Positions 1,868 to 35,500 of a stretch of 64,000 bases of DNA are shown here, piece by piece (within the stretch, counting starts at the first letter, position 1; every line of letters begins with the position of its first letter). Below the pieces are notes generated by a model. It saw nothing but the letters and a program-made list of their open reading frames with translations, did not search any database and had not been told where the DNA came from. The DNA is from Nitrososphaeria archaeon (GTDB taxonomy: Archaea; Thermoproteota; Nitrososphaeria; JACIWG01), in NCBI GenBank assembly GCA_029776065.1, contig JARVJP010000011.1:124001-188000 (forward strand), read 5' to 3'. The translations under genes were made by a program, and so were the position numbers.

Positions 1868-3676
1868 TTATTCTTCTCCTTCGACTCTAGTAATGTAATA
1901 GTATCTATCTTCTTCTTTCTGTGCTCTATCAAGCTTGCTCTTTGGCTTATTTATCCTAGGCCTTCCAGTCTCATAATCCCTTCTATACGTTATACCTAAC
2001 TCTTTAAGAAAGGAGTTCATACCCTCGTTCTTTCTTAAAGGGCTTTCCGCTTCCCCTATGATTGAAGGCTTTCCTTTAAATATCATTAGCTTATCTGAAA
2101 CTATGTCAATAAGCTGTACATCGTGGTCTACAATTATTGCTGATTTGTTTCTAGAACGTACATATCGTTGAATTATCTTGGCTAATTCAACTCTATCTTC
2201 GGCGTCTATAAAGGCTGATGGTTCGTCAAGGGCGTATATTTCTGTATTTTGGAGAAGTGTTGCTGTGACTGCGGTCTTTTGAAGCTCCCCCCCACTAAGC
2301 TTTTGAAGTTCTTTTTCAAAGAGCTTATCTACATGTAATGGGACAATTATCTCATTATATTCTGATATAGAAGTAACATCTCTTCCTGCTATGTTATCTA
2401 GTAACTCTTTGACATTTTGACGTTCTTTAGGTGGAGTAACATATTGAGGTTTATATGCGATCTTTGAATTTGACTTGACTGTTCCTACGTCTGGCTTCTC
2501 CACCCCAGCGATAATCTTAATAAAAGTAGTCTTACCTAATGCGTTGGCTCCTACTACTCCAATGACTTCCCCAACTCTGAGCCTACCTCTCCTAACCTTT
2601 AGGCTAAAATCCCCATAGGTCTTCTCAAGCTCTGTATATTCTACTATTGGAATAGTGTCTATTGATTCGGTACCTGGGGCATAAACGTCAAAGATTATTC
2701 TCTTGTCCCTAAATCGCACATTCTCTTCAGGTATGTACCCATCCAGGAAGGCATTAATTCCAGCCTTTGTAGGCATGACTTGTGAGACAATGCCGTATAC
2801 TCCTGGTTCTCCATATATTAGGTGTATATGGTCGCTAAGATAATCTAGGATCGTTAGATCGTGTTCGACTACAAAGACGCATTTCCCCTCCTTTGCGACA
2901 TCCATTATTACTTGTGAAACTGCCAATCTTTGATATACATCGTTAAAGGAGGAGGGCTCATCGAAAAAGTATATGTCAGCGTCCTTTGCAGCAGCAACAG
3001 CGATTGACAACCTTTGAAGCTCTCCCCCACTTAGTTGAGGGATGCTTTTTGTTATAGAATCTTTAAGGTTAAGCTGTTCTATTAATTCCTTTAAAACACC
3101 TCTCTGATCCACCATATTGAGAAGTGATAGACCATCCTTTGTCCAAAGTTTTGTTAAATTGTAAACGGCCTGCGGTTTCACGCTGACTCTAAGCTTATTG
3201 TTCGCGATCTTCTCGAAGTGATCTTTCAAGGCTGTTCCCTTAAAGTAGTTTAAAATCTCCTCCCAAGAAACCTCTCCTTCTAATCCAAGATTTGGCTTCA
3301 GAAGGCCTGACATTATACTTATAACCGTCGTCTTTCCTACACCATTTCTTCCTAGAACGCCTATCACGGAATTTGGTCTCGGTGTTGGTAATCTGTATAG
3401 TCGATAGCTGTTCGGGCCGTATTGGTGTATCTTATCTTTTAATAATTCCTCTGCTAGGTTGACTATGCTGACCGCGTCAAAGGGGCATCTTTTAACACAA
3501 ATACCGCAACCTGTGCATAGTATCTCACTAATTACAGGAAAGTCATCTTCACCTTTCTTTATGGTGTCTTTTTTCATCTTGTTTATGGGACATACATTGA
3601 TGCAGATGTAAGGGCACTTTTTAGGGTTGCATAATTCCCTATCTATTACCGCAATTCTATGTGGCATAAATTTCAC
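1868..3676 (-). CDS. rli1: Ribosome recycling/biogenesis ATPase ABCE1 (RNase L inhibitor, Rli1)
   Basis: N-terminal ferredoxin-like Cys clusters (CTGCGICVKRCPF), two ABC ATPase domains (GRNGVGKTT, LSGGELQR; GANALGKTT, LSGGELQK). Confidence 0.97.
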   Translation of the reverse strand: MKFMPHRIAVIDRELCNPKKCPYICINVCPINKMKKDTIKKGEDDFPVISEILCTGCGICVKRCPFDAVSIVNLAEELLKDKIHQYGPNSYRLYRLPTPRPNSVIGVLGRNGVGKTTVISIMSGLLKPNLGLEGEVSWEEILNYFKGTALKDHFEKIANNKLRVSVKPQAVYNLTKLWTKDGLSLLNMVDQRGVLKELIEQLNLKDSITKSIPQLSGGELQRLSIAVAAAKDADIYFFDEPSSFNDVYQRLAVSQVIMDVAKEGKCVFVVEHDLTILDYLSDHIHLIYGEPGVYGIVSQVMPTKAGINAFLDGYIPEENVRFRDKRIIFDVYAPGTESIDTIPIVEYTELEKTYGDFSLKVRRGRLRVGEVIGVVGANALGKTTFIKIIAGVEKPDVGTVKSNSKIAYKPQYVTPPKERQNVKELLDNIAGRDVTSISEYNEIIVPLHVDKLFEKELQKLSGGELQKTAVTATLLQNTEIYALDEPSAFIDAEDRVELAKIIQRYVRSRNKSAIIVDHDVQLIDIVSDKLMIFKGKPSIIGEAESPLRKNEGMNSFLKELGITYRRDYETGRPRINKPKSKLDRAQKEEDRYYYITRVEGEE

Positions 3677-9941: not shown

Positions 9942-10361
9942 TTATTTGGGACTCTGGTTATAAGTTGCTTTCTTTGATTTCATTTGTTTAATATTCTCCT
10001 TTCTAACCATCGAATACACTTCAGCCATTATATTACGCGCTTGTCTTGTTTGTTCCAATGCATTGTTTAGTCTACCATTTTCAATTTCATCCTCTGCGTT
10101 CCTTAAGTGTTCTTCAGCAGCATAGATAACGCGCTCTAGATGGTCAAGGGGAATCTCGATCTTTGTGTTATCTGCTGCCTCGATGTCTCCTATTTCGAGT
10201 TTGGTTAGAAACACGGTTGACTCACAGTCCTTGTAAACGGTCCAAACCTCTTTTTCTAATTCAAAGATCGATCTTCCGTTTATAACTTCCTTACTGATAC
10301 CTTTTATCCCATCAAGGCACTGTTTAAGTAATGATTTTATCCTGTGTCTTCGTTCCATCAA
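9942..10361 (-). CDS. DUF357-like helical protein
   Basis: Short helical protein with DUF357-style AEEHLRNAEDEIENGRLNNALEQTRQA. Confidence 0.65.
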   Translation of the reverse strand: MMERRHRIKSLLKQCLDGIKGISKEVINGRSIFELEKEVWTVYKDCESTVFLTKLEIGDIEAADNTKIEIPLDHLERVIYAAEEHLRNAEDEIENGRLNNALEQTRQARNIMAEVYSMVRKENIKQMKSKKATYNQSPK

Positions 10362-21014: not shown

Positions 21015-21821
21015 TTACGTTACAAGTTGGTTAAAGAGCTCTCTTCTTCTTATCACTCCTAGTAAATGTTCTCCCTTTGTTACTGGATATATAACAAGAT
21101 TTGTGTTTGAAAGCAGAGTCGCTGCTCTTTGAACAGGGTCTTGAGGACTAAGCTTTTCTGTAATAAGTACCATTATATCGTTTGTTACAAACTTTTGAAG
21201 TGCACTTCTCATATGGTGAACCGTGTCTTCTGATAGATAGTTGAACAAAAACGTTGCAAGCTCCTTTTCACCCACAACTCCAATTGGTGATGTGTTTTGA
21301 ATGACTACAAATTCACGCATGTCTTTATCCCTTAATATTTCATTAATGACTGTTGAGAGACCAGCCCCTGCAGGTATTCTATATCCTCCTCTGACAAGGA
21401 AGTCCTCTACTCTTCCATGAAGTTCTTTGGATAGGAGGTTTATTAGCATATTTTTGGTCAGCAAGCCTTGAACCTTTCCATTTAACCCTATAACCGGAAG
21501 TGCGCTAACATCTTCTTTGCTCATTATTGAGATAGCGTCCGATAGTGTCATATCCTGACTTATGTATACGAACCTTTCACTTGTAAAGGCTGCAACACTA
21601 AGTGAAGTTGGCGAGATGTTACTGAACTTCTTTGAAGCAAGCTTCATAAATACATCTCTAAGAGTTACAACTCCTATTAATGTCTCCTTATCTTTGACTA
21701 ATATTCTATCTAGTTTTGTCTTTTTTAATTCATAGAACATCAAGGATATTTTTTCTGACTTAGATAATATACTCACCTTTGGTAACTCGAATGACTTTAC
21801 ACTATCTTTTCTTTGAGGCAA
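21015..21821 (-). CDS. CBS-domain protein
   Basis: Repeated CBS signatures (LIGVVTLRDVF, ALPVIGLNGKVQGLLT, LLGVIRRREL). Confidence 0.88.
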   Translation of the reverse strand: MPQRKDSVKSFELPKVSILSKSEKISLMFYELKKTKLDRILVKDKETLIGVVTLRDVFMKLASKKFSNISPTSLSVAAFTSERFVYISQDMTLSDAISIMSKEDVSALPVIGLNGKVQGLLTKNMLINLLSKELHGRVEDFLVRGGYRIPAGAGLSTVINEILRDKDMREFVVIQNTSPIGVVGEKELATFLFNYLSEDTVHHMRSALQKFVTNDIMVLITEKLSPQDPVQRAATLLSNTNLVIYPVTKGEHLLGVIRRRELFNQLVT

Positions 21822-22644
21822 TACTTAACACCTCGTACTTAGAGAAGATGCCGCTGACGCGTCCCTCTGGATCTAATACTGGGAGTGCGCCTATATCCTT
21901 TGACACCATTATAGATGCTGCGGTTTCCACATGATCATACTCGTGAACTATTATTACAGGGGTTGACATGATGTCCCCTGCTGTCGCTATTGCGATATAA
22001 TTAATCTTCATATGCGTTGCTTCTCCTCCTTTTATTACTGAGCGTTTTGTTAGAATCTTTTTTACAGGGGCAAATTTTACAAATGCTAAATTAGATGGCG
22101 AAATGATTCCAACAGGTTTTTCTTTATTATCGATCACAATGACTCGGTGTATTGGGTTCTTGAACAACAGATCTGATACATGACTTATGCTGTGAAAGGG
22201 CGATGCAAAACTAAGGTCCCCCCGCATATGCTCTTTAACCAACATATTTGTTTTCAATTGTGCAACGTACTTTGTAATATCATGAGTTGTTATTATACCC
22301 GCTAGCTTTCCGCTCCACGTAACTGGGAGGCCTCCAACTTTCTTATCAAGCATTATCTTTGCCGCCTCACCTATATCAGCATTATATTCTATAGTTACTA
22401 TATTTTTCTTCATAAAATATAGGACAAGTAATTGATCTATTGGTCTTGCTTTCAAGGAGGGTTTTGATGGTAATAAAGCCTTTGCTAGATCTTCCCTCGT
22501 TAATATGCCCACAATCATGTCTTGTTCCATGACAATTAGTCTTCCAACCTTCTTGGATATCATAAGGTTTTTTGCTCTTGCAAGGGTATCATTTGGTTGA
22601 ACAACATAAACATCTTTTGACATATAATCGTTAACAGAAACCAA
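21802..22644 (-). CDS. CBS-domain protein
   Basis: Four CBS signatures (MIVGILTREDLA, GGLPVTWSGKLAGIITTHDI, PVGIISPSNLA, IGALPVLDPEGRVSGIFSKYE); overlaps next gene by 20 nt. Confidence 0.9.
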   Translation of the reverse strand: MVSVNDYMSKDVYVVQPNDTLARAKNLMISKKVGRLIVMEQDMIVGILTREDLAKALLPSKPSLKARPIDQLLVLYFMKKNIVTIEYNADIGEAAKIMLDKKVGGLPVTWSGKLAGIITTHDITKYVAQLKTNMLVKEHMRGDLSFASPFHSISHVSDLLFKNPIHRVIVIDNKEKPVGIISPSNLAFVKFAPVKKILTKRSVIKGGEATHMKINYIAIATAGDIMSTPVIIVHEYDHVETAASIMVSKDIGALPVLDPEGRVSGIFSKYEVLSIASKKR

Positions 22645-22724
22645 GTCTAACCCAGAATTTAGGGTGTTAAACTAGTTAAAAACTGTTTCTATTCTTTTCG
22701 TTTAATGAGTTTACCAACATGTCT

Positions 22725-23306
22725 TCATTGATCTGTTCTACATTCTTCGCAGATGTACTTCCCATCTACTTCAATAAGTGAGTCGGACCATCTATTACAT
22801 AGGTCACAGTAACCTGCCATAAGCACAGGGTTTCTTCTCGACTCTGCTAAAGGTGTCTCAATATTTAGTCTCTCTGAGAATATCTCAACCAACTCTGGTG
22901 TTATTGATATGATATCCCATATTGAGAGAATTCCTTCAATTTTGCCTTTGTAGGTGACTCCGACACGTTTAACCTTCTTCTTTCTCATGTATCTGACTGC
23001 GTCTACTAGTTGTGCTTCACTTTCTACAGTGTATATAGGTTTCGTCATTATTTCTATTGCTTTAGTTTTATCAGGGTCTAATCCTGCTGTAACAATACGA
23101 TCTATAATGTCTCCATCAGTAACCATTCCTATTGGTGTGTTGTTCTCCACAATGACAATACTGCCCACATCGTTCTCTGTCATCTTTTTGGCGATCTGTC
23201 TAGCCGTCTCTTCAGGTCTTCCTGTAATTACAGGGCTATTCATCACTTCTCTTACTGTTATATTCGCTGGATTAGTACGGCTAGGGTCGATTGCCATTTT
23301 CTTCAT
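22725..23306 (-). CDS. CBS-domain protein with C-terminal zinc-ribbon
   Basis: Two CBS repeats then YCDLCNRWSDSLIEVDGKYICEEC. Confidence 0.9.
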   Translation of the reverse strand: MKKMAIDPSRTNPANITVREVMNSPVITGRPEETARQIAKKMTENDVGSIVIVENNTPIGMVTDGDIIDRIVTAGLDPDKTKAIEIMTKPIYTVESEAQLVDAVRYMRKKKVKRVGVTYKGKIEGILSIWDIISITPELVEIFSERLNIETPLAESRRNPVLMAGYCDLCNRWSDSLIEVDGKYICEECRTDQ

Positions 23307-23346: not shown

Positions 23347-25245
23347 TTATTGTAATTTGATTTTACACCCTCCTGGGGGTAGTGCACGGATATAATCTTC
23401 AAGCGGTATATCTTTCACTCCTTCTAACGAAGCCATCTTCTCTGATAAGACTGCCTTGATCTTTTTCGCTACAGAGTTCTTATCCTCTCTACCAGGTACT
23501 ATTAGGACGATGTGGTCTGTGCTTTTTTTAATTGCCTCCTTTGGTCCGCATATAACCGTGTAGTGATCTTTGACCTTTACTATTCCTACTGCTAACTCTA
23601 GGGGTAGGTTCTTGATATAGTTTCTCTTTCCCGTTATCATAAAGGCTCCTCTGGCAATGTATTGACCAGATGGTGCTTTCTTTGATATTTGGTCTTTGTA
23701 AAACCAATAAGCTTCCCCTAAAGCTGTTCCAAACTTCCAAAGGTTGCTAAAAGCTACAGCTGCAGTTGCAGTTTCCTTTATACTGGCTTCTGTGGCTTTT
23801 CTTCCGTCTTTTACTATAAAGAATGGGGCACCTGTGAATTCGGCGTGGAATATTATGTCGTTTTCTTCGAGATGTTTCTTCACTATCGCTTCATTTGAAG
23901 AAGCATCCCTTCCTCCTATCGATAGGAACCCATCAGAGGTGTAGAACCACCTATATCTCTCAAACCATTCTTTTTCGAAAGCTTTTTTATGTTTTTTAGA
24001 GATAGTTTCCTCTTTTAACTTTATTTTTTCTTCTAATCTATCAAGTTCTTCTTTTAAGTTGTTTATGGACTCATCTATTTTATCAATCTTTTGTAACAGC
24101 TCCTTTGCTGTGCCAAATATTTCGGAAGCTGTCTTTAAGGGGTTTGAGTCTTCAAAATCGAACTTGTAGTTTTTTAGTATGAGCTTCTTTGTATCATCTT
24201 CGATGATCAGCTTTGCAGGTTTCAACTTTTCTTCGAATAAACTTTGGCTTTGATAATATAAAACAATGTTTTCCCTTAACGAAGTTGCTATATCTGTTAA
24301 CATCCTACACTCTACATTTAATCTCTCTTTTTCATCAAGTAATTGCCCTATAGTGCTTTTTAATCTTTCTTCAGCTTTGTGTAGTGGCTGTAAAAGTGTT
24401 CTGTTTTTTTGTTCAAGGATCGCCTTCGTATATATAACATCTATTGCTTGGTTGATGTCTTTAACCTCTCTTGTTGCATATTGTCCGTTTTCTACTTTAT
24501 AAATTGTGAAGCCTACTATGTTGTCTCCTTGAACTATCAAAGTTGGGGTTAATTCTTTTTCGTCAAAGAATTTATGTATTATTTCGACTAGTTCAGGTAG
24601 AATATTTGGTTTGAGCTGTCTCCCCGTTGTGCCGGGAGGAACTTTAAGCTGCTTTGGTATTATATCGATGAATTTTTTTGGAAGGGCAAGTTTATTTCCT
24701 ATCCATTTTCTGAAGTCTTCGTCGTATTCTAGAATTGGTTTGATACTTTCTTCATCGATTTTTAGAGGGTCTAGTCCTCTTTCAGGTGGTAGGGTGTATT
24801 TTGACATCTTCCTTATACTTCTATGCCTTGTATCATAGTATTCGAGTGCCTCAAGTATTACATCTTGTTCGTCAAGAAGGATGATGTTTCCGTTTCCAAA
24901 GAACTCTGTTACTAGTTTTTTGGCCTCACTCCCTACTAAACTAATGAAGAGTATCCTCTCAGTTCCTACTTGTTCTATGGATTTAATCTTGCCTCTTAAA
25001 AGTCTTTTCCTAAATTGAGAAGGGGTGGTGTCTGTTTCGTCTTCTAGTTTAGATTCAGTGACCCAAATCGACTTTCCACTGTCTATAACTAGTCTTTTCT
25101 CAGGTTTTGAAGGGTGATGTAATCTAATAAGTAGGGTGTTTCCCGTTATCCAGTAAACGTTATTAACATAATAATCTTTAAGACTTGCGTTCAGCCACCT
25201 AGCTTGGTGAAATAGTTCTATGTTGCTTAGTGCTTGTGTGCTCAT
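23347..25245 (-). CDS. NFACT/Rqc2-like ribosome quality control protein
   Basis: NFACT-N features, central coiled coil, RWFYTSDGFLSIGGRDASSNEAIVKKHLEENDIIFHAEFTGAPFFIVK (NFACT-R). Confidence 0.95.
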   Translation of the reverse strand: MSTQALSNIELFHQARWLNASLKDYYVNNVYWITGNTLLIRLHHPSKPEKRLVIDSGKSIWVTESKLEDETDTTPSQFRKRLLRGKIKSIEQVGTERILFISLVGSEAKKLVTEFFGNGNIILLDEQDVILEALEYYDTRHRSIRKMSKYTLPPERGLDPLKIDEESIKPILEYDEDFRKWIGNKLALPKKFIDIIPKQLKVPPGTTGRQLKPNILPELVEIIHKFFDEKELTPTLIVQGDNIVGFTIYKVENGQYATREVKDINQAIDVIYTKAILEQKNRTLLQPLHKAEERLKSTIGQLLDEKERLNVECRMLTDIATSLRENIVLYYQSQSLFEEKLKPAKLIIEDDTKKLILKNYKFDFEDSNPLKTASEIFGTAKELLQKIDKIDESINNLKEELDRLEEKIKLKEETISKKHKKAFEKEWFERYRWFYTSDGFLSIGGRDASSNEAIVKKHLEENDIIFHAEFTGAPFFIVKDGRKATEASIKETATAAVAFSNLWKFGTALGEAYWFYKDQISKKAPSGQYIARGAFMITGKRNYIKNLPLELAVGIVKVKDHYTVICGPKEAIKKSTDHIVLIVPGREDKNSVAKKIKAVLSEKMASLEGVKDIPLEDYIRALPPGGCKIKLQ

Positions 25246-27645: not shown

Positions 27646-28232
27646 ACACTATGGAGTATTCGGTTGAAGTAGTTGAGCTAAGTAGGAGGTCTATGGAATT
27701 TAGGGTAGGAGATATTATTTACATTAATGGGGAGGTAGCATTTGCACGAGATAGAGTCCATAAACACTTGTCTTTAGAACGAGAAATTTTACAAGAACTT
27801 GTTGGTTTGCCTATCTACCACTGTGGTCCTATTGCTGTATTTGATGGTGTGAAGTATGTTTTTTTAGCAGCAGGTCCTACAACAAGTATTAGGATGGATC
27901 AATTCATAGAGGACATTGTCTCAAGGTACCGTACACCAGCTATAATAGGTAAGGGTGGTTTAGGTATACTGGGTAAGAATGCTTTAAAAAAGTACAAGTC
28001 GATTTATTGCGACTTTCCCGGCGGGGCTTCAGCCTACGCTACTAAAAGGGTGAAAAGAGTTGAGAAGGTCTTGTTCAAGGAATTTGGGTTATCCGAAGCC
28101 TTATGGATTGTGTCTGTTAGAGAATTTGGTCCTTTACTTGTAACACACGATGCTAAAGGTGGGGACTTTAGACATAATCTGCATTTGAGTAAAAGTGCTT
28201 TAGAAAGGGTGCTTTTCGAACAAGGTCTTTAG
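27639..28232 (+). CDS. Class I fumarate hydratase, beta subunit
   Basis: IYINGEVAFARDRVHK, YHCGPI, AAGPTTSIRMD, IIGKGGL; overlaps alpha subunit gene. Confidence 0.93.
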   Translation: MVNTMEYSVEVVELSRRSMEFRVGDIIYINGEVAFARDRVHKHLSLEREILQELVGLPIYHCGPIAVFDGVKYVFLAAGPTTSIRMDQFIEDIVSRYRTPAIIGKGGLGILGKNALKKYKSIYCDFPGGASAYATKRVKRVEKVLFKEFGLSEALWIVSVREFGPLLVTHDAKGGDFRHNLHLSKSALERVLFEQGL

Positions 28233-30124
28233 ATCCTACTGTGGGACTCTATCCCTAGTATAAACATCAAATCTTTTAGCACATTTAAGAAGGCCTTTAC
28301 TAATATTAGCCTTTGTCCCTTCTTAATCTTATCTTGTTCGTGAAGAACTGGGTATTTCTCATAAAAGGTATTAAATAGTAAACATATGTTATGAGCGTAC
28401 TCAGCTAGTTTATTTGGTTCTAACCGTGTTGTCGCATCTTTAATGATGATCGTAAATTTGGATAGTTCTTTTATGAATTTATACTCTTCTTGTTCAAATA
28501 TTCCATTCACTTCGATCATAGGGGTGAATTCACCATGCTTCTCTAGTATCCTTGAAGCCCTTGCATAGGTGTATTGGAGGTAGGGGCCAGTTTCTCCTTC
28601 CAGCTTTAATGCCTCTTTTAGGTCGAAGACTAGTATTTTTCCAAAATCTTGCTTGATAAGGCCGTATCTGATTGCTGAAACCGCTATGGACATCGCAATT
28701 TCTTGAATCCAGTTTGGATCAGCGTCAGGGTTCCTATGCAAGGTTTCTTGGAGTGCAAGCTTCTCAAGTTTCTCTAATACATCGTCAGCATTTATGTATA
28801 TACCCGCCCTTCCTGACATGTGGATAAAGTCCTTGTCTTCTACTTTTAGGCCCATCTCTATAGCGGTGTCTTTACTTAGCGATACTATCTCGTAACCTAA
28901 GTGGATGTAGTCTTTTTGCTTTCCTTTTTCTCCAAATCTTTTGATGATGCTGGCTATTATCTTCTGAAGTCTCCCTTGTCTAACATCGATGACGTTTATC
29001 GCTACGTCGGCGTTATTGAATATAGGGTGGTCTTTTTCGCCTTCTGATAGGGTGGTTTTCCATAAAACTTTTCCATTCTTTTGTACCATGAATTTCTGAT
29101 AGTTGAAAAAATCATCGACTAGGCCAAGTTTCCACGCGGCATAAGGTATATCTTTCGCTATGTAAGTAGCTGTACCATCGCTTCTTATAAGTACCTTATC
29201 TTGGTCGTCTGCACCCTTAATAACCCAGCATCCCGCATTCTTTCCTTCCTCCTCATACACAATAATTTTCTGATCTTTCATCTGTTGGAATACCTTCTGC
29301 CAAATCTTTGAAGCAACTATATCCGATTCAAAGTTGAGGCAGTCGTAGAAGGCTCCAATACTTGTACAAGTTTTAAGCTGTTCATATAGAACCCTTTCTG
29401 TAATCTTCTTTGCGTACTCATATGTTTCTGAGCTATGGTTTTCTAATTCTTTGAGAACTATCCTCCTATATTTCTCAGTTTCAGGTTTATCAGAGTACAT
29501 CTGATTTACCTTAACATATACGTGATCTCCACAATAGTGATCAAACTTTATCTTAGGATCAGGTGGGTCTTCAGGAAAACCTAGAAACTTGAATCCCACA
29601 ATAATATCTGCCACCTGTAGTCCTGAATCATCGATATAATTTAAAACGACTACTTGGTGATTTGTATACTTTAAAAGTCGTTGAACTACATCTCCTATTA
29701 CCACATTCCTTAAATGTCCTATGTGTAATGCTTTGTTTGGGTTAACACTTGTATGTTCGACTGCAACCTTTTTTCCTTTACCGATGTCAATAAATCCAAG
29801 TTTTTCATCTATTGACTTTTGTAGTGTCAAATTGCAAAATTTTGGCCTGTTAACTTTAAAGTTTAAGTACCCTGGTGGGGTTACATTGACGTCGCCTACT
29901 AAGTTTCTTTTGAAGCTAATCATCTTTGAATGCAGCTCTTCTGCTACTTCTAACGGTTTTCTCTTCTGCTTCTTGGCTATATCAAATGCGACGGTGGAAG
30001 AAAGGTCTCCATACTCTTGTCGAGGGGGTTCCTCTAATACGACACGCTCAATCGAATAACCTGTTTGTTTCACAGCCTCTCTGATAAGCTGCTCTGCTTC
30101 CTCTCTAAATGCTTCAAATACCAT
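28229..30124 (-). CDS. argS: Arginyl-tRNA synthetase
   Basis: VEHTSVNPNKALHIGHLRNVVIGD (HIGH), YIDDSGLQVAD, LKLEGETGPYLQYTYARASRIL. Confidence 0.97.
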   Translation of the reverse strand: MVFEAFREEAEQLIREAVKQTGYSIERVVLEEPPRQEYGDLSSTVAFDIAKKQKRKPLEVAEELHSKMISFKRNLVGDVNVTPPGYLNFKVNRPKFCNLTLQKSIDEKLGFIDIGKGKKVAVEHTSVNPNKALHIGHLRNVVIGDVVQRLLKYTNHQVVVLNYIDDSGLQVADIIVGFKFLGFPEDPPDPKIKFDHYCGDHVYVKVNQMYSDKPETEKYRRIVLKELENHSSETYEYAKKITERVLYEQLKTCTSIGAFYDCLNFESDIVASKIWQKVFQQMKDQKIIVYEEEGKNAGCWVIKGADDQDKVLIRSDGTATYIAKDIPYAAWKLGLVDDFFNYQKFMVQKNGKVLWKTTLSEGEKDHPIFNNADVAINVIDVRQGRLQKIIASIIKRFGEKGKQKDYIHLGYEIVSLSKDTAIEMGLKVEDKDFIHMSGRAGIYINADDVLEKLEKLALQETLHRNPDADPNWIQEIAMSIAVSAIRYGLIKQDFGKILVFDLKEALKLEGETGPYLQYTYARASRILEKHGEFTPMIEVNGIFEQEEYKFIKELSKFTIIIKDATTRLEPNKLAEYAHNICLLFNTFYEKYPVLHEQDKIKKGQRLILVKAFLNVLKDLMFILGIESHSRI

Positions 30125-30151: not shown

Positions 30152-30844
30152 CTATAATTTAAAAAACTTATCCACAATATGTGCTGCGGCTTCTTCGAAG
30201 CCACGGCCATATCTTGACAGCGTTGTATATGATGAATTTGCCTTTACGTTTTGTTCTGCGTTGGCAACCGATACACTATATCCACAGGCTCTAAACATTG
30301 GGATATCGGTTTCACTATCCCCAATTGAAACTATTTCTTCTAAATCTATGCCAAGAATTTGAACTGCCTTTCTTAAACCTACTGATTTGTCGATATCCCC
30401 TTTAGTTAGGTGGTATGAAACTTTGCTGTCATAAAGTTTGACATTAAGGCCATGTTCTTTAATGATCTCTCTTCCAACTTCTTTTGGGAAAGTTCTCAAT
30501 AATACCACATCAGTAAGTCTTGGGAAAGACCTAATTACTTTGACACCATCCATCTTTGATGATAAGATGTTGTAAGCCTTTAAAGGTAGATCTTGATCAC
30601 CAAGTTTGATAATATCTATTGGGGACTTAGCTACAACCCCTCCGTTTTCTGCAACGATTACTTTGTCTGTCCCACAGAATTCTGCGAGTGAATATACCTC
30701 ATACATGGAACGACCGCTGGCAAAGATCACCTTTAACCCCATTTCTTTGAGCATTCTTATGCCATTAATTGCCTCAGGGCATAGTATGCCGTTCTGATCT
30801 GTCATAGTACCATCTATATCACAGGCAACAGCTTTTACATGCAT
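30152..30844 (-). CDS. HAD-family phosphoglycolate phosphatase (archaeal)
   Basis: AVACDIDGTMTD, FASGRS, IVSIGDSETDIPMFRACGYSVSVANA. Confidence 0.92.
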   Translation of the reverse strand: MHVKAVACDIDGTMTDQNGILCPEAINGIRMLKEMGLKVIFASGRSMYEVYSLAEFCGTDKVIVAENGGVVAKSPIDIIKLGDQDLPLKAYNILSSKMDGVKVIRSFPRLTDVVLLRTFPKEVGREIIKEHGLNVKLYDSKVSYHLTKGDIDKSVGLRKAVQILGIDLEEIVSIGDSETDIPMFRACGYSVSVANAEQNVKANSSYTTLSRYGRGFEEAAAHIVDKFFKL

Positions 30845-30873: not shown

Positions 30874-31122
30874 TTAACTCTTTGTCTCGAAGTACTCCTT
30901 CTCAGCTATTGTCAGCACACCAGATTGGGAAAGTACCCGGTAATCTTCTAATCTTTGTTTATGCAGATACTTCTTTACTAGCAATTTTAGGGTTTCTACG
31001 TTTATTTCAGGGTATTCAATAGAATTGCCATCAACCTTTCCTTCAATTCCCTTTTTCTCCTTAACGAAAGCTTGGAAATCTGATATCCTATCTTTTATTT
31101 TGTCAAACTTTACTACAGTCAT
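30874..31122 (-). CDS. Putative eL22-like ribosomal protein homolog
   Basis: DFQAFVKEKKGIEGKVDGNS...LKLLVKKYLHKQRLEDYRVLSQSGVLTIAEKEYF is collinear with eukaryotic eL22 core; basic, 82 aa. Confidence 0.6.
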   Translation of the reverse strand: MTVVKFDKIKDRISDFQAFVKEKKGIEGKVDGNSIEYPEINVETLKLLVKKYLHKQRLEDYRVLSQSGVLTIAEKEYFETKS

Positions 31123-31196: not shown

Positions 31197-32219
31197 TTAT
31201 TTAAGAAGACCTAGTTCTCTTCTTCTGTCTATAGTTGCTTCCGCATCTGGGCCTGTGCTTATGATCGAAACAGGAGCCTTAGTTTGTGCTTCGATTACAT
31301 CTATCATCTTCTTAGATTCTTTTGTGAGTTCACTAAAGTTCCTAATGTTCTTTGTTTCTGGGAAGAGTATATCAAATTTTGTGACTGCTATTTGTGTAGC
31401 AGAATTTAACATGACCGCCCTTCTAGCTAATTCATAGTTGAAAGGTGCACTTCTCCTAGTCCTTCCAGTCACTGTGGCTCTTTCGAGCCAACCCCTTCTC
31501 TCTGCTTCTTGCTCTGTTAATTCGCCTGGGAGTTCGCCCGCTCCAACCCTCGTCACATAAGCTTTGAAGACTATAATAACTTCGTCTACAACTTTCGGTC
31601 CTATACCAACATCTGAGCAAATTGCTGAGGCAGTCACATCTTTGGTTGTTACGAAGGGGTATGTTCCATGATAGAGTGATATATACGTACCTTGGGTTCC
31701 TTCAACATGTACAACTTCCCCATTTGAGATCGCTTCGTTGACTAAAAGTGGGACATCACCTAGGTACAGCGATAATTCAGGAATATCTTTACCCATTTTA
31801 GCTGTGCGCATTATCCTTTCAACGTTCGCTGGCCCACAGCCTGTTCCCGTTGTACCGATCTTTCCTTTAAGATAAGCGTCTAATCGATCCTTTTCGATAT
31901 GCTTCCCCTCTATTATGCTACATTGCCTGTCTAAAGTGACTCTATCCTTGACATTAAATTCTGCTACCTCTTTAAGGAAGACATTTGGATCAACTAAAAC
32001 ACCAGGGCCTATCATTAATTTGGTCTCCTCATTTATGACTGCACTTGGAAGCATTCTGAGCTTGCTTTCCTTTTGCCTAAAGACTACGGTGTGCCCTGCA
32101 TTAGGCCCTACTCCTCCTCTAACTGCGATCTTAGGATTATCTTTAATAGCGAGGTAGGAGACAATTTTTCCTTTTCCTTCATCTCCAAAGAACCCACCAA
32201 CAATTACAGTGCATGTCAT
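31197..32219 (-). CDS. purA: Adenylosuccinate synthetase
   Basis: VGGFFGDEGKGKIVSYLA, GGVGPNAGHTVV, GTTGTGCGPA, VEGTQGTYISLYHGTYPFVTTKD. Confidence 0.97.
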   Translation of the reverse strand: MTCTVIVGGFFGDEGKGKIVSYLAIKDNPKIAVRGGVGPNAGHTVVFRQKESKLRMLPSAVINEETKLMIGPGVLVDPNVFLKEVAEFNVKDRVTLDRQCSIIEGKHIEKDRLDAYLKGKIGTTGTGCGPANVERIMRTAKMGKDIPELSLYLGDVPLLVNEAISNGEVVHVEGTQGTYISLYHGTYPFVTTKDVTASAICSDVGIGPKVVDEVIIVFKAYVTRVGAGELPGELTEQEAERRGWLERATVTGRTRRSAPFNYELARRAVMLNSATQIAVTKFDILFPETKNIRNFSELTKESKKMIDVIEAQTKAPVSIISTGPDAEATIDRRRELGLLK

Positions 32220-33565: not shown

Positions 33566-34705
33566 TTGATGATTAGGCCTTTATTATACTGGGTACAAAT
33601 GAATTCTAATTGCCCTGTGATTACGCCTCTATATGGGTGGATTTTTGAAGTGCGGTTTAAAAGTTCCATAATAAGATATAAGGGTTTTATTTTATATGTT
33701 TGCTGTGAGACCTTGAAGGTGTTTGGAAAGGTTAGTGAGTCGGTCTTAAGAAAATATGTACTCCCAAATATTGGTATGTCGACTCAGGATTTAGTTCAAC
33801 CTGCTGGTGTAGGGGTTGACTTCGGCGTTGTTAAAGTCAGTAACAAGTACTTGATCGTCTCAGCTGACCCAATTACAGGGGTACGGGAAGATATTGGATG
33901 GTATGCTGTTAATGTTAGTGCCAATGATGTAGCTACAAGTGGTACTAGGCCAACGTTCTTAATCAATGTGATATTGTTATCAGAAAAAGAAAGTAATACC
34001 TCTCTCTCTAAAATTACTAAAGATGTTGATAAAGCATGTAAGAGCTTGAACATCTCTGTTGTTGGTGGCCATACAGAGATTACAAAAGGCCTAGATCAGA
34101 CTATACTCGTTGTTACATCGTTTGCATTTACCGATAAATATGTGTCATCAAAGAACGCTCAAGAAGGAGATGTAATATTAATGACAAAGACTGTTGGTTT
34201 AGAAGGCACTAGCATACTTGTAAGGGATTACGGCAAATATCTCAAAAAGCTAAGTACTTCGGAGAAGAGAAACGCTCTAAATATGGTGGAAAGGATAAGT
34301 GTGGTAAACGAGGCTGTTTTAGCTTTCAACACAGGATATGTGCATGCTATGCATGACCCAACTGAGGGAGGTATAATTGGAGGGTTATATGAAATGAGCG
34401 TGGCATCAAATTTAGGCTTCATGGTCTACGAAAGTAAAATTCCAATTGCCCAAGAAACCATAAAGGTGTGTAAATCTTTGAAGGTAGATCCTTTGAAGTT
34501 AATAAGCTCAGGTGTTCTTTTAATGGCTGTTGACCCAGCTGGTAAAGATGTTGTGAAAGAAGTGTTGAACAAAAACAATATAGTCGTTTCTGAGATAGGT
34601 TTCTTTAAAGCAGGTGACCGAGTACTCATCTCTAAAGAGAAAAAAACTTTAGTAAATTCGAGTCCGGTAGACGAGCTTTGGAAGTTGAAGAGGCAGAGGT
34701 TATAG
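33566..34705 (+). CDS. AIR synthase-related/HypE-like protein
   Basis: PAGVGVDFGVVKV, VSADPITG, VVGGHTEITKGLD, MHDPTEGGIIGGLYEM. Annotated start too far upstream; conserved part begins near 33710, so start codon uncertain. Confidence 0.88.
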   Translation: MMIRPLLYWVQMNSNCPVITPLYGWIFEVRFKSSIIRYKGFILYVCCETLKVFGKVSESVLRKYVLPNIGMSTQDLVQPAGVGVDFGVVKVSNKYLIVSADPITGVREDIGWYAVNVSANDVATSGTRPTFLINVILLSEKESNTSLSKITKDVDKACKSLNISVVGGHTEITKGLDQTILVVTSFAFTDKYVSSKNAQEGDVILMTKTVGLEGTSILVRDYGKYLKKLSTSEKRNALNMVERISVVNEAVLAFNTGYVHAMHDPTEGGIIGGLYEMSVASNLGFMVYESKIPIAQETIKVCKSLKVDPLKLISSGVLLMAVDPAGKDVVKEVLNKNNIVVSEIGFFKAGDRVLISKEKKTLVNSSPVDELWKLKRQRL

Positions 34706-35500
34706 TCCAAAGCGTCGGCTCCGATTCTGGTAGATTCTAATCGCTCTCATTAAATCTATCTTTCTAAAGTCAGGCCAATAGACGTCGAAGAATATTAGTT
34801 CACTATATGCGCTTTGCCATAAAAGGAATCCGCTCAAACGTTCCTCTCCAGAAGTCCTTATCACCATGTCTGGTTCAGGATTTGGTAAATGGGATGTGTA
34901 AAGGTATTCAGAAATCAATTGCTGATTGATGTCATCTACCTTCACCTTACCATCTGAAACATCCCTTGCTATTGTTTTGACCATGTCAACAATTTCTTGT
35001 CTCCCACCATATGCGATCGCGAGGTTCAAAAAGAATGAGTTGTATCTGCTTGTAGACTCCTCTATTTCATTGATTAAGTCTTGGATGTTTTTCGGTAGTA
35101 GAGACAACTTCCCTATGAATTTGATTCTTACCTTTTTCTCATGAAGATCTCTGTTTATTTTAACTTTTTCTAAGTACTCCTCCAATAAATTGAAGATATG
35201 TTGAACCTCGTTCTGATCACGTTTTAGGTTCTCGGTTGAGAGAACGTAAAGTGTGATCGTCTTTATCCCTAAATCCTCCCCCCAGCTCAGCAGCTCCTCA
35301 GCCACCTTGGCTCCAAATTCATGACCTACTATATCAGGTAAACCTCTGAGCTTCGCCCATCTCCTATTTCCATCGAGTATTAATCCAATATGTGATGGAA
35401 TAGGTTTTCCCTTTACCTGCTTTGTAAGCCAATATTCGTATATCCTGTATACTCCGAGGACTTCTAGTACCTTCTTGAGCAAGAGGTCGCACCTATTCAC
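34700..35500 (-). CDS. uppS: Cis-prenyltransferase (isoprenyl diphosphate synthase, UppS family)
   Basis: HIGLILDGNRRWAK, TLYVLSTENLKR, AIAYGGRQEIVD, IRTSGEERLSGFLLWQSAYSEL. Confidence 0.96.
   Translation of the reverse strand: MNRCDLLLKKVLEVLGVYRIYEYWLTKQVKGKPIPSHIGLILDGNRRWAKLRGLPDIVGHEFGAKVAEELLSWGEDLGIKTITLYVLSTENLKRDQNEVQHIFNLLEEYLEKVKINRDLHEKKVRIKFIGKLSLLPKNIQDLINEIEESTSRYNSFFLNLAIAYGGRQEIVDMVKTIARDVSDGKVKVDDINQQLISEYLYTSHLPNPEPDMVIRTSGEERLSGFLLWQSAYSELIFFDVYWPDFRKIDLMRAIRIYQNRSRRFGL

Follow-up and report, generated by a model that had tools for sequence, protein, structure and literature searches.

An archaeal homologue of the ribosomal protein eL22 that is spread over Thermoproteota and probably predates eukaryotes

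Introduction

The ribosomal protein eL22 (RPL22, PF01776) has been described as present only in eukaryotes (PMC4966820) and, in other accounts, as shared by eukaryotes and Asgard archaea (PMC8997704, PMC10307638). Among the latter, it has been reported for Lokiarchaeum (PMC4571567) and for several Asgard phyla (PMC10307638), and the fact that Hodarchaeales possess it has been put forward as an argument for their kinship with eukaryotes (PMC10307638). Human L22 cannot bind 28S rRNA or enter ribosomal subunits without residues 88–93 (KKYLKK), while residues 80–84 contribute to its affinity (PMC2668802). With regard to TACK archaea or Thermoproteota, our literature search, which covered few subscription papers, found no report of eL22.

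The gene described here belongs to a metagenome-assembled genome (MAG) of the class Nitrososphaeria, in Thermoproteota. The host is not an Asgard archaeon, in keeping with the impression recorded in a first-pass annotation of this DNA, and its sister MAGs are likewise named Nitrososphaeria archaeon. The protein family is a known one; what appears to be new is how widely it occurs beyond eukaryotes and Asgard archaea.

The gene and its neighbours

The gene occupies positions 30874–31122 on the minus strand of the window, that is, the whole stretch of 64,000 nucleotides that was analysed, which lies on a 501-kb contig of a 1.74-Mb genome that is 95.5% complete. From an ATG start at 31122 it encodes 82 residues (MTVVKFDKIKDRISDFQAFVKEKKGIEGKVDGNSIEYPEINVETLKLLVKKYLHKQRLEDYRVLSQSGVLTIAEKEYFETKS) with a pI of 8.8, the small basic protein that the first-pass annotation had placed at exactly these coordinates. 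Its assignment as an eL22 homologue draws on Pfam, the PDB, the predicted fold and conservation within its family.

Is this a real gene? The homologue is found in all five sampled genomes of the family (f1), the four other proteins being 48–57% identical to that of the window. These four were recovered from the genome contigs with the five-sequence family alignment as the query, whereas the single window protein gave no matches there. Because the nucleotide differences between family members concentrate at third codon positions (e.g., 2/2/31 and 6/2/34 at positions 1/2/3), the sequences indicate a conserved gene under purifying selection.

The surroundings form a minus-strand run with short gaps. 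Immediately upstream, ∼74 bp away, is purA, for adenylosuccinate synthetase (31197–32219; PF00709, E 3e-73), and ∼29 bp downstream is a HAD-family phosphatase gene (30152–30844; PF08282, E 4e-32), beyond which lies argS, for arginyl-tRNA synthetase (28229–30124; PF00750/PF05746). In sister genomes (L010, L012 and L013) argS directly follows eL22 and the phosphatase between them is absent; the phosphatase is an extra in the window, outside the conserved neighbourhood. Also on the minus strand is a gene for a uppS-like prenyltransferase (34700–35500; PF01255, E 4e-79).

In addition, three consecutive genes for CBS-domain proteins (21015–23306, minus strand) keep their order in sister genomes. 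The first-pass annotation had also seen significance in the co-occurrence with ABCE1, NFACT and TopIB of eukaryotic type. Pfam confirms an ABCE1-type gene (Fer4_RLI plus ABC; 1868–3676) and NFACT (23347–25245), both on the minus strand, but their company adds little to the case for eL22 because all three proteins are common in archaea.

Sequence and fold

When the window protein is compared with the 24,736 families of Pfam-A, its sole match is PF01776, Ribosomal_L22e (E 6e-4), at 20.5 bits and thus below the curated cut-off of 23.6. A phmmer search of the PDB, carried up to E 10, matched 19 sequences, every one of them eL22, with a best E of 0.01. No model matching the homologue was found in NCBIfam. 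As far as one sequence can tell, the evidence for eL22 is specific but marginal.

The relatives of this protein speak more clearly. When the five family members are combined into a profile, relatives are found throughout the phylum, with E values down to 8e-12 per genome. Six of the eight relatives tested against Pfam match Ribosomal_L22e at E ≤0.0012, and five exceed the cut-off, reaching up to 37.4 bits. A search with PF01776 at its cut-off is positive in 41 of the 61 genomes sampled around one genome from another part of the phylum (G101) and in none of 14 controls, and the highest score of any archaeal relative is 46.7 bits. When 23 archaeal sequences are made into a profile and run against the PDB, 67 distinct entries are matched at E ≤1, the best at 2.1e-8. 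The 60 that are listed are eL22, from protists and fungi as well as from plants and animals, some few being labelled by genome-assembly or locus name only.

The window protein itself can be tied to these relatives. Against a profile built without its own family it scores 39.3 bits, the best of 10,000 shuffles reaching 15.3, and a profile–profile alignment of its family with the other archaeal families gives E 2.5e-13. The motif first recognized by eye (F-x2-F-x2-E, GK, KKYL-x-K-x2-L and RV) is indeed there, and the resemblance goes beyond chance.

A similar picture emerges from the predicted structure. AlphaFold2, given the five archaeal family sequences and no templates, returned a model with a pLDDT of 86.1, a pTM of 0.74 and the element order E-H-E-E-H-E-E. 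In a Foldseek comparison with the PDB, the top 50 structures listed were all eL22 chains of eukaryotic ribosomes (probability 0.99–1.00, TM-score by query 0.58–0.72). Judged from the model, these moderate TM-scores are those of the same fold as eL22 with the loops shortened. What the first-pass annotation had put forward as a candidate is thereby borne out. Neither of the outcomes that it had named as refuting the idea, a missing PF01776 signal or a predicted fold unlike that of eL22, was observed; the protein is all but certainly homologous to eL22, and the small gene is very probably the archaeal version of it.

The likeness to the eukaryotic protein embraces the sequence profile, the predicted fold, the basic helix KKYL(K/H)K and the RV that comes after it. 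However, the window protein is shorter and has neither the N-terminal lysine-rich nuclear signal nor the acidic tail, although many homologues from other families of Thermoproteota do carry an acidic EEE tail at the C-terminus, as eukaryotic eL22 does. A proline- and lysine-rich C-terminal tail occurs in the homologues of one family, f66 (L019, L020 and L023). As for the Asgard proteins, they too are archaeal eL22 homologues predicted from genomes, but from another phylum. Because many homologues exceed the Pfam cut-off, public databases probably label some of the archaeal ones automatically already; what appears to be new is not the name of the family but its distribution and the meaning of that distribution.

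A ribosomal or a free protein?

The reading that we favour, and regard as very likely, is that of an archaeal eL22, a protein of the large subunit vertically inherited in Thermoproteota. The gene would encode a small ribosomal protein of beta-alpha-beta-beta-alpha-beta-beta fold, which would bind 23S rRNA through its basic second helix (KKYLHK...R). The codons for KKYLHK (50–55; 30958–30975, minus strand) align opposite human residues 88–93. When 46 archaeal proteins are aligned with human eL22, numbered after a PDB chain, the positions opposite human K84, K88, K89, K92 and R101 hold a basic residue in 46, 45, 46, 41 and 46 of them. In the second basic cluster, at 80–84, the positions opposite residues 80, 81 and 84 hold one in 35, 25 and 46 of the proteins, and the window protein, with V and E opposite residues 80–81, differs from the eukaryotic one in retaining only the counterpart of K84. 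Because the basic counterparts of the human rRNA-binding residues are conserved, it is most likely that the window protein binds the rRNA of the large subunit in the manner of eL22. We infer that it belongs to the archaeal 50S subunit, where it would be a stoichiometric component sitting at the eL22 site.

Could it instead be an eL22 homologue that acts off the ribosome, as a free RNA-binding protein (e.g., a regulator or an assembly factor) derived from eL22 or ancestral to it? Human L22 has RNA partners outside the ribosome (PMC2668802), the archaeal gene sits beside purA and argS and outside any ribosomal-protein operon, which counts against a ribosomal role, and many archaea do not have it. 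Nor did the rRNA provide a co-varying partner. Between 13 carriers and 8 non-carriers of eL22, no 23S segment differs consistently in length, and the three single alignment columns that separate the two groups all lie outside domain III, so that no co-varying binding site was found. Set against these points are the conserved rRNA-binding residues and a gene that is mostly single-copy and in one family (f12) near-universal, as expected of a core component. Moreover, genes of archaeal ribosomal proteins are often scattered. On balance, a free protein is an unlikely alternative.

The 23S comparison also brought to light insertions of ∼400–600 nt, near E. coli positions 1261–1290 and 2491–2520, in three loci (L084 of G486, L085 of G007 and L086 of G095); these large insertions are probably rRNA introns.

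Distribution and descent

The eL22 of the window is not an isolated case but belongs to a family that occurs across the phylum. Of 300 genomes of the class, 46 give a match at E ≤0.01, among them all five of f1 and genomes of families f11 and f76–f84. Around G101, in a group that is probably Bathyarchaeia, 155 of 401 genomes match at E ≤0.001, and f12 alone accounts for matches in 80 of its 91 listed genomes. At least two matches occur in many f66 genomes, and two clear copies of eL22 in G689 and G697 (f44). A few weak matches in f2, f3 and f10 (E 0.002–0.3) fall within different reading frames, most of them longer, and we did not take them for homologues; to judge by the size and completeness of their genomes, f3 and f10 are presumably ammonia-oxidiser-like.

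Homologues in f12, f34, f44, f66 and f78–f81 are only ∼23–35% identical to the window protein, but they are the same family by profile and share part of its neighbourhood, namely purA. This gene was beside or near eL22 in 12 of the loci read, which come from several families, and the order uppS-purA-eL22 is frequent; uppS adjoins the pair in L051, L054, L055, L057 and L060, all of other families. Another neighbour, from a family of 117–149 aa without a Pfam match, directly adjoins eL22 in ∼13 loci of other families (among them L037, L039, L040, L051–L053, L057, L058, L061 and L063), and a distant homologue of it is encoded at 9945–10361 (minus strand) of the window.

How did the gene come to be so widespread? 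In a gene tree of the proteins from Thermoproteota, the sequences group by taxonomic family with the minimum number of changes, the deep branches being long and weakly supported. Vertical inheritance with losses fits both this tree and the distribution. On this view, the genes of Thermoproteota and those of Asgard archaea and eukaryotes would go back to one common ancestor; within Thermoproteota the gene would have passed down vertically, and several lineages, the ammonia-oxidiser-like families among them, would have lost it. Scattered losses of this kind are plausible, given that yeast does not depend on Rpl22 for viability (PMC4966820). That Thermoproteota and Asgard archaea both have the gene is, we infer, due to shared ancestry and not to transfer.

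Alternatively, the gene could have arrived by horizontal transfer, with eukaryotes or Asgard archaea as donors, or a MAG could be contaminated, given that Asgard archaea carry eL22 (PMC10307638) and that all of these genomes are MAGs. Such an origin is very improbable, since the contig is long and the genes around eL22 are archaeal, the five family genomes, assembled separately, all have the gene in shared synteny, matches extend to well over 100 genomes across the phylum, and the tree, which speaks to descent within Thermoproteota more than to ancient transfer between phyla, follows taxonomy; contamination was rejected. That a small basic protein of unrelated origin has come to look like eL22, by convergence or by chance, as the marginal single-sequence scores might suggest, is scarcely conceivable and was rejected, because eL22 comes first and almost exclusively in every sequence, profile and fold search and the shuffled controls stay far below the real score.

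Conclusions

Vertical descent in Thermoproteota leads to a deeper question: how old is eL22? As it is wide in this phylum, it is probably older than eukaryotes and has probably been overlooked here. It is likely that the lineage from which Thermoproteota, Asgard archaea and eukaryotes arose already had eL22 in its large subunit, that much of Thermoproteota has kept the protein, and that it is no innovation of eukaryotes or Asgard archaea.

If this is true, the use of eL22 as an Asgard–eukaryote signature needs to be reconsidered. Its wide presence in Thermoproteota likely moves its origin to before the Asgard–eukaryote line, and weakens eL22 as evidence for the kinship of Hodarchaeales with eukaryotes. 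The prediction that follows is that the ribosomes of many uncultured archaea would contain one more protein of eukaryotic type than has been assumed.
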